Shown piece after piece: positions 3,607-15,621 of a stretch of DNA of 64,000 bases (positions are counted from its first letter, which is position 1; each line of letters starts with the position of its first letter). Source of the stretch: Nannochloris sp. 'desiccata' (Eukaryota > Chlorophyta > Trebouxiophyceae > Chlorellales > Chlorellaceae); the NCBI GenBank assembly GCA_019044685.2, contig JAGTXX020000004.1:682001-746000 (forward strand), read 5' to 3'. A model generated the notes under the pieces. It ran no database searches, was not told where the DNA came from, and saw nothing but the letters and a program-made list of their open reading frames with translations. A program made the translations under genes and the position numbers.

Positions 3607-4084
3607 TTATAATTTATAACATTAATTTATACAAATTCATTTCTGAAATTTTCTTTCTCCGTAATATCTCTGTTAATATTTTTTTAGTTTCTCTTCCCAC
3701 AATGATATAATAATATTGTGTGTTATCTTTACAGTTCTGGGTGTGATATATCGATATCATACAACTTGAATATTATTGTGCAATAGAGTATTAAAAGAAA
3801 CAAAGCAAAACAAAAAGAGAGAAAAGCCGGAGATTGAAGAAGGAAGGAAACCGTCGACACAGAGTTTAATTTTGGGGAATAGTGTGAGAATTTGTCCTTC
3901 TACATTGCCCTTGCTCTTCTCTCACCGGGAAAGACACACAATAGAACGGTACTGCGTACAGGGAACCAATTATTTATTATTATATAGAAGATTAAAAGAA
4001 AGAAAGAAGGAGAAGTCCAACTTTTACAAGGAAAATAAAATATTTTTTTGGCCTATATGTAGGTATAGCTAAATGACTAAACAT
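3607..4084. other. Tail-to-tail intergenic region, RMI1 / H+-ATPase
   Basis: Both flanking genes end here, so this should hold two 3'UTRs. It is AT-rich with purine-rich (GAAAGA-type) runs near 3980-4040. I see no gene; the 98-codon open frame at 3776-4072 has no ATG at its claimed start and lysine-rich low-complexity content. Confidence 0.5.
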
Positions 4085-13139: not shown

Positions 13140-15621
13140 ATGATGAGATTCATAATTTGTTTTGTGGTCTTTTTAAATGCGATGATGCCAGTTGCGTTGG
13201 CACAGGCTTCCAACATCTTTCAACTTAAAATGTGAGTTTAATGTTGCGAGCCTGCTTAAGTTGAACCCTTTCAATCTAAGCCTTCATTTGACTTTGCAGG
13301 GATTGGAATCCATCGTCTTGTGAACCACCCAGCAGTCCATGCCTCCAACCGCCCTTGTAAGTTTTCTGAGAATTGCCTTGAATTCACAAACCTGCCGCCA
13401 GATGATGGCTTCTGCTATTCACCAGTTTAAAATTTTGAAAACCTGATTTCTCACGAGGCTTGATGCACAACATTTTGCAGTCGCGCATTTACCATGTCTG
13501 CGCTCCTTAATTACTCAATTCCATTGAACGGAGGTGAATATAACTGTCCAACAACTATCACAGATGCCGCCGCTGACATACCCGCTGATATCGAGCCTCA
13601 GCTGGAGTGCACCTTTATCAATTCAGCAACTATGGCTGGAGCGTCGAATGCGCCTTTTTGGAATAGTGTCTGGAAAGGAACTGGATCATGTTTTAATATT
13701 GCACCGGCCGCCTACTTCAGATTGTTTGCTAAGTCGTACAATAAGTACAACCCAAACGTAAGGGGGCATAATTATTTATTTATAAATACGTCGGCAAGAT
13801 TTTCATCTAGCAGATAAAATCCCTCCTTACTTTATTTTTTCGAATTTATCTATGTAGCCTATTTTTGACGATCTTGGAATAAAAGCAGGTTCCACCGTTG
13901 ACGGTGATACTTTCTTAAACCAACTTTCTGAGGCCTATGGAAAGAGGGTATGGATTGAGTGCGAAGGAACTAGAAATGTGAAGAATGTCGTCGTCTGCTT
14001 GTCTAAATCCGCGCCTAATGATATCGTGGATTGTCCGCCTATGACCAGTCCTGACGCTGTAGCTTGCGCTGGAGACTTGGATTTTCCAATTTCTGGAAAG
14101 CCTGCTGCAATTCTAGTCCCTGAAAATTGCGACATCTTTGTTAAGAGTATAAATGTAGCTGCCACCCCTCCAAAATCTCCTTACCCCATCCCAAACAAAT
14201 CTCCAGGACCTACTCCAGTTCCTCCTGCACCAGCCACATCTTCGTCTTCAAATATAGGAGCAATTATCGGCGGCGTTGTCGGTGGCTTGGCAGTCGTCGC
14301 TGCCATTGTTGGAGGCATCATTTTTATGAAGAAAAAGAAAAGCTTTGAGGCTGTCGCCGCCGTTGGCAACATGGAACAAGGAGTCGCTTACAACTATGAA
14401 GGCCCAGGCCAACCACAGCCTCAATTTGCTTCCGTACCACCTACTGCTGCCTCTATGCAAGCTCGTGGTTTAGCACAGGGATTAAGTCCATATGCCTACG
14501 GAGCCACTGGTGCTGCAGCCGGGGTGGGCGCAGCTGGGTTTGTCAGTCAAATGAGCCGCGGCAGTAGTAGCCAGCCTTCAAGCCCGATTACTCCTTACTC
14601 AAATTATAGAGCTTCCGGTACAAGCACTTTAGATCCTTTGATGGAGTACATAAACTCTACCTTCTCAACAGGAACCGCTGTGTCTGGCAACTCTCGTGGG
14701 CCCTTGGCTGCATGGCAATTGAACTTCCAAGATATCACTGTGGAAAGGCCCATAGGCGAAGGTTCATGGGGACGTGTATACAAAGGAAGTTGGAATCAAA
14801 CCGAAGTTGCAGTCAAAATTCTGCTTGATACCAACACGGGTGACGAGGCAAACGTCACTCAGTCCGCACTGATGGCACCTAACAACCCTGTGATGGCTCG
14901 TTTAGAGCAAGAAGCCAGTATTATGACTACGTTGCATCATCCAAATATCGTCCAATTCTTGGGAGTGACTGTATTCCCTGCTGCTCTCGTCACTGAGTTC
15001 TGTGCCCGGGGCAGTTTGACTTCTGTCTTGATGGCTGCAAACAACAGCCCTGAACGCGCTGCTCAACTTACATGGAGACGCCGCATCTCTTTAGCGGCTG
15101 ATTGCGTCCGTGGAATGCTCTATTTACACACCCGTGCTCCTCCTATTGTCCATAGGGACTTGAAAAGCGCTAATTTGCTCGTAACCTCCTCCTGGACCTG
15201 CAAGGTCTCCGACTTTAACTTGTCAAAAATTATGGAAGACAGTACCAGAAGCACTTCTTTGCAAGCAATGAATCCTCGCTGGCTGGCACCTGAAGTCTTG
15301 AACGGCGGGGTTGCCTCTCTCCAATCTGATGTCTTTGCTTATGGCGTTGTCTTGTGGGAACTCTTGACTTTCCAGTTGCCTTGGGGTACAAGCAACCCTT
15401 GGGGTATTGTCAGCCTGGTTACCGCTGGTAATCGTTTAACTGTTCCTGATGCCAACACGTTGCCTGGTCCTGAGAGTGGATCCTGGCCAAAGCTTGGCGA
15501 GTACGTTGCTTTGATGGAACGTTGCTGGGCTCAAGAGCCAGCTGACCGCCCTAATTTTGAGCAAGTGATGGCTGAGTTGCGCCGTATCGACCCTGAAGCA
15601 ACACAAAGCAATGTTTATTAA
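13140..15621 (+). CDS. Receptor-like kinase with catalytically dead RNase T2-like ectodomain
   Basis: Exons 13140-13231, 13300-13356, 13481-13757 and 13858-15621 give 729 aa. Signal peptide residues 1 to about 22 (MMRFIICFVVFLNAMMPVALA). Residues about 28-205 follow RNase T2: DWNPSSC start, FTMSALLNY at the CAS I position (family FTIHGLWP), FWNSVWKGTGSC at CAS II (family FWxHEWxKHGTC), AYF, the WIEC and VVVC strands and IVDCP. The catalytic-motif His, Glu, Lys and His positions are Ser56, Ser112, Val113, Gly116 and Thr117, so nuclease activity is not expected. A Pro-rich stalk and one TM helix (about 275-299, ending MKKKK) follow. The kinase (about 434-720) has the G-loop GEGSWG, Lys462, HRDLKSAN at 574, DFN instead of DFG at 594-596, and APE at 619-621. 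It resembles TKL/Raf-like Ser/Thr kinases. The extracellular ligand is unknown; nucleic acid, glycan or peptide binding are all open. Confidence 0.85.

Follow-up and report, generated by a model that had tools for sequence, protein, structure and literature searches.

The locus described here, in the chlorophyte Nannochloris sp. 'desiccata', raises the question of whether an RNase T2 domain that has lost its catalytic residues can serve as the outer part of a membrane kinase, and of what such a domain would then recognize. The host genome comprises 21.55 Mb in 18 contigs (the table in PMC12636532 gives 21.6 Mb and 45.0% GC for N. desiccata UTEX 2526), and the locus lies in the analyzed window, a stretch of 64,000 nucleotides corresponding to positions 682001–746000 of contig C4. 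The gene model occupies window positions 13140–15621 of the forward strand, where four exons join in frame to encode 729 amino acids, and it holds in one unit a T2-homologous domain, a stalk, one transmembrane (TM) helix, and a CTR1-like kinase. The reading that we favor, and consider fairly probable from the sequence, is that of a single-pass plasma-membrane pseudoenzyme receptor kinase whose dead T2 ectodomain has probably been reused for extracellular recognition.

Table 1. Features of the receptor gene, in window positions
Feature	Position	Strand	Description
Exon 1	13140..13231	+	Signal-peptide-like N-terminus (hydrophobic residues 4–22), start of the T2 domain (FQLKM)
Exon 2	13300..13356	+	DWNPSSC...CLQPP, conserved T2 cysteines 1 and 2
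Exon 3	13481..13757	+	T2 core, both altered catalytic motifs
CAS I position	13488..13511	+	Residues 53–60, FTMSALLN vs expected FTIHGLWP
CAS II position	13656..13691	+	Residues 109–120, FWNSVWKGTGSC vs expected FWxHEWxKHGTC
Exon 4	13858..15621	+	C-terminal part of T2, stalk, TM, juxtamembrane region, kinase, stop
Pro-rich stalk	14137..14241	+	Residues 236–270, 11 Pro
TM helix	14254..14310	+	Residues 275–293, mean hydropathy 2.53, basic residues after
Protein kinase domain	14734..15579	+	Residues 435–716, E 6.6e-53 (Pfam)

RNase T2 homology, gene model, and receptor layout

Homology to RNase T2 along the ectodomain had been proposed in a preliminary description of this DNA, and profile comparisons with the spliced model bear it out. 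The Pfam family Ribonuclease_T2 (PF00445) matches residues 26–194 over profile positions 3–182 of 188, with 53.4 bits (cut-off 26) and E 4.5e-14. Against a profile of nine active-type algal T2s, from which P0016 was excluded, the whole ectodomain scores 48.4 bits, exon 3 alone 14.0, and the T2 part of exon 4 alone 14.5; the full score was not matched by any shuffle of exons 1–2, of exon 3, or of the exon 4 T2 part (0/500 in each case). The profile check suggested in the same description, made here as a profile–profile comparison with ten active-type T2s, also gives the T2 family (probability 97, E 1.1e-10, 167 columns), and the nearest solved T2 by sequence is RNase NGR3 (E 3e-6). The structural route was treated as uninformative: the AlphaFold model of the NCBI protein P0001, built with eight rows, has a mean pLDDT of 42.1, and none of its seven Foldseek matches at E ≤ 10 is a T2 (none of them reaches E ≤ 0.001), but most of the kinase domain, with pLDDT under 50, was likewise left unfolded.

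Both active-type T2 loci found in this genome score much higher than the receptor ectodomain (139.2 and 124.3 bits). When the genome was searched in six frames for the T2 family, four places were listed and the receptor locus was not among them. The protein search did find it, its other matches being only two C14 genes (40.7 and 19.2 bits), and no second T2-kinase copy was present among these genome matches. The active-type T2 gene C7 (L012, around position 3775) has a first intron that is seemingly GC-AG, in phase 0, and placed directly before the conserved Trp.

The three introns of the receptor gene (68, 124, and 100 nt) are all GT-AG, and exon 4 is an open frame of 587 aa. P0001 (hypothetical protein Ndes2526A_g01846, Nannochloris sp. 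'desiccata') comes from the same gene; it joins exons 3 and 4, starts at Met55, and lacks exons 1 and 2, so that the public model is without window positions 13140–13356 and hence without the signal peptide. Against PF00445, exon 3 alone stays below the cut-off of 26 with 21.0 bits, and exon 4 alone, whose kinase match has E 3.3e-53, gives no Pfam T2 match. As both exons are needed for the T2 match, the T2-kinase fusion rests on the exon 3–4 join. Addition of exons 1 and 2 to P0001 raises the Pfam score from 38.4 to 53.4 bits (+15), and the receptor and its paralogues C14A and C14B all have intron 1 in phase 2 and two codons ahead of the conserved Trp; because of this gain and of the shared phase and place, exons 1 and 2 are regarded as supported.

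These data also bear on a mispredicted gene, which we judge improbable. Exons 1–3 could encode a secreted dead T2 protein and exon 4 a separate kinase, or the transcript could start in exon 3, the T2 part then not being extracellular, and both the Met55 start of the NCBI model and the missing Pfam match of exon 4 alone would suit a misprediction. Against it stand the contribution of exon 4, which encodes the final third of the domain and lifts the score from 21.0 bits for exon 3 to 38.4 for exons 3–4, the shuffles of that part, and the support for exons 1 and 2.

In the favored model, hydropathy and Pfam give a putative signal peptide, an ectodomain, a single TM helix, and a predicted intracellular kinase in this order, with the N-terminus depending on exons 1 and 2; the succession of stalk, TM helix, and kinase given in the preliminary description is supported, and the predicted layout is that of a single-pass receptor. 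A third, weaker hydrophobic stretch (residues 506–524) falls inside the kinase domain. The kinase motifs are in place (GEGSWG 442, VAVK 459, HRDLK 574, DFN 594, APE 619). DFN stands in the place of DFG, as also in 6 of the 16 related kinase loci surveyed, and is a point against the favored reading. In the PDB sequence search, the best solved relative of the kinase is CTR1 (3ppz; 188.9 bits, E 1.4e-54), followed by EGFR (147.2 bits) and then by HCK, MLK-type, and B-Raf kinases, and no RLK/Pelle kinase occurs among the best 60 of 653 PDB rows. The kinase thus appears closest to CTR1 (TKL, CTR1/Raf-like), an assignment by PDB sequence search. The term "receptor-like kinase", used earlier for this gene, fits the predicted membrane kinase layout; its plant RLK/Pelle sense is not supported by these 60 rows.

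Altered catalytic site and possible ligands

The catalytic site was aligned in 17 T2 rows, ten of them active-type. All of these ten carry the His of CAS I as well as the Glu and the second His of CAS II. The other two CAS II positions are softer markers, the first His being Tyr in two of the ten and the Lys replaced in three. The receptor lacks each of the three residues shared by all ten (Ser56, Val113, and Thr117 stand in their places), and with Ser112 and Gly116 all five catalytic-motif positions are changed, one in CAS I and four in CAS II. All eight cysteines common to five aligned T2 proteins of the genome are kept. A fully altered site on a retained scaffold had been claimed from the first inspection, with FTMS placed from residue 53 and FWNSVWKGTGSC from residue 109, and the alignment agrees on both the substitutions and the positions.

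The earlier suggestion that the domain acts as a sensor of RNA, glycans, or a partner cell is weakened as to RNA. The HGLWP segment has become SALLN in the receptor, the motif Trp and Pro being Leu59 and Asn60; this Trp is a base-site residue in RNase Rh. The computed pI of the receptor ectodomain is 4.37, while those of C14A and C14B are 9.29 and 8.36; charge is nevertheless weak evidence on RNA binding, because nine of the ten active-type rows are acidic too. We give little credence to an RNA or nucleotide sensor, in which the old groove would bind RNA without cutting it and then signal: the ectodomain is a T2 homologue and a basic dead paralogue does exist in C14A, but the acidic receptor domain, as weak evidence, and the loss of the catalytic His together with the putative base-site Trp argue against such a role. 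Classical RNA binding by the receptor ectodomain appears unlikely, and a protein or glycan ligand is a more likely guess.

Dead relatives and the probable order of loss

C14A and C14B are tandem T2 genes of secreted type near the end of contig C14 (L010 4152–5462 and 5827–6892), without a kinase. Of 5277 candidates in a profile search with the dead T2s, five proteins reached E ≤ 0.1, namely P0002 (Nannochloris) and four others. In C14A, C14B, and the database relatives P0003–P0005, the CAS I His is present in 5/5 and the CAS II catalytic residues in 0/5. P0006, represented in both NCBI and JGI data with a longest contig of 8,506 bases, is closer to the receptor: this 126-aa frame is 63% identical to receptor exon 3 over 88 aa, has Ser at the CAS I position and T, V, G, and T at those of CAS II, and shares with the receptor the altered motif N(S/T)VWKGTG(S/A)C. 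It follows the receptor to the same NPN as in exon 3 and then reads through like an unspliced exon. By itself, P0006 gives no Pfam T2 match at E 0.01, and in the viral contigs searched for its relatives four stretches fit a pattern and none was a relative.

Sharing of the altered motif at this identity suggests that the dead domain has been maintained, P0006 being a fragment that is not known to be joined to a kinase. A decaying relic without function is very improbable. All five catalytic-motif positions are altered and the genome matches include no other T2-kinase copy, as decay would have it, but the 729-codon model is open, the kinase motifs are in place, and P0006 retains the same altered motif.

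In the T2 tree, from which P0012 and P0014 were excluded, a single branch (100/100) separates the seven dead rows from the others. Because the branches of this dead clade are long, at 1.98 and 2.06 changes per column, its unity may in part be an artefact. Forcing the receptor rows together with C7 and P0008 was 15.2 log units worse (p-AU 0.0116), and forcing them with C6 was 13.6 log units worse (p-AU 0.0056), both constraints having been tested after the tree was seen. Since the secreted paralogues are also dead at CAS II and group with the receptor, part of the catalytic loss probably preceded the fusion to the kinase. In the likeliest sequence of events, the CAS II residues would have gone first, with the fusion and the change at CAS I following. 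Loss of catalysis had originally been tied to recruitment as a sensor; the change of the catalytic residues is clear, but with secreted, CAS II-dead paralogues grouping with the receptor, its timing need not coincide with recruitment.

Related kinases and comparison with known systems

Kinases related to that of the receptor occur at 60 places in the genome at E ≤ 1e-10; 30 of these places were taken as loci, 16 of which were covered by a TM survey. L034, L035, and L038 were left out of the kinase set of 19, since none of their frames contains an HRD motif, and L033 is in the 16-locus survey but outside the kinase tree. In nine of the 16 loci the kinase is preceded by a TM segment that is strong, with a mean hydropathy of 2.1 or above (L014, L015, L016, L017, L018, L020, L021, L022, and L028), and in L019 and L027 by a borderline one. 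Pfam, applied to six ectodomains, gave LRR in L014 and RCC1 in L020 above the cut-off and no family above it in L015, L017, L018, and L028, L018 having a sub-threshold F5/8-type match; by eye, L021 and L022 resemble RCC1 and L015 has what look like Cys-rich repeats.

L015 and L017, neighbors on contig C16 (around 391936–396171), have identical kinase domains (289/289 aa, with four synonymous and no nonsynonymous codon differences) and unlike ectodomains, and the two halves therefore do separate in this genome. This pair is also the one with which the receptor groups in the kinase tree (89/88, not starred), so that exchange of ectodomains within the lineage looks like the origin of the T2 receptor. 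For L015 and L017 themselves, either an exchange of ectodomains or conversion of the kinase half would account for the pattern. Apart from this, kinase matches on contig C15 between 357763 and 901214 include three pairs whose members score equally or nearly so and lie in mirror order round about 629.6 kb on opposite strands, which suggests a large inverted duplication or the presence of both haplotypes in one contig.

From these elements a mechanism can be proposed. A secreted T2 gene, already partly dead, would have been fused with the TM and kinase portion of a local receptor family in which several different ectodomains occur. Its product would be secreted with the N-terminus outside, where the pseudo-RNase domain may bind a ligand, RNA being a less likely one than a protein or glycan; such binding would alter receptor pairing, and the paired kinases would phosphorylate one another and a downstream cascade. 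That the receptor ectodomain and the secreted dead C14 paralogues form a two-part recognition system, by mutual recognition or through a common ligand, is a speculative extension to which we assign a low probability. Pairing of secreted and receptor forms is found in other self or partner recognition systems and is proposed here for a single-celled alga.

If the favored reading is true, a chlorophyte whose genome measures only some 21.6 Mb places varied ectodomains on CTR1-like kinases, and apparently does so independently of the receptors of land plants. RNase T2, a family known for its part in self-incompatibility of plants and in RNA turnover, would then have become a receptor component that likely binds a ligand. 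The defined gene and its dead secreted relatives provide a test case for what a pseudo-RNase T2 binds.

No second case of the architecture was found in the searches made, in agreement with the initial impression that it is not a described class. In a directed database search with an active T2 query padded to the receptor length (E ≤ 0.01, 258 candidates), all ten matches carry T2 and none is listed with a kinase, and of 563 candidates in a search with the receptor ectodomain, the gene's own protein was the one match at E ≤ 0.001; both are searches that need shared 5-residue words, which diverged fusions could escape. Likewise, no T2-kinase receptor was found in titles and abstract openings of the open-licence papers covered, and the T2 surveys PMC9250077 and PMC5598434 have, in the portions available, a single kinase mention each, on Brassicaceae self-incompatibility and not on a T2 fusion.

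Dead-enzyme ectodomains, dead T2s, and kinases with many ectodomains are already known, and it is the pairing of T2 with a kinase that did not appear in the searches made. In one plant T2 set, 91 of 715 sequences are inactive or lack the His (PMC5598434). The receptor resembles these dead plant T2s in the loss of the catalytic His, which according to that survey is tied to a shift toward basic pI (PMC5598434); the C14 pair is basic, whereas the receptor domain is acidic. PR5K receptor kinases (PMC10573068 and PMC10868138) similarly carry a pathogenesis-related domain on a TM kinase, although theirs is thaumatin-like and the one described here is homologous to RNase T2. For the kinase half, the best solved-structure match is among the CTR1/Raf-like plant kinases (3ppz). 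CTR1 itself is not known to have an ectodomain or to be a single-pass receptor. The tobacco chitinase-related receptor kinase CHRK1 likewise has a dead hydrolase ectodomain on a TM kinase. By Pfam, no hydrolase family such as chitinase was found in our receptor, T2 being given instead, and it is not of the CHRK1 type: CHRK1 is a land-plant RLK with a chitinase-type ectodomain, and the present gene combines RNase T2 with a CTR1-like kinase in a chlorophyte.
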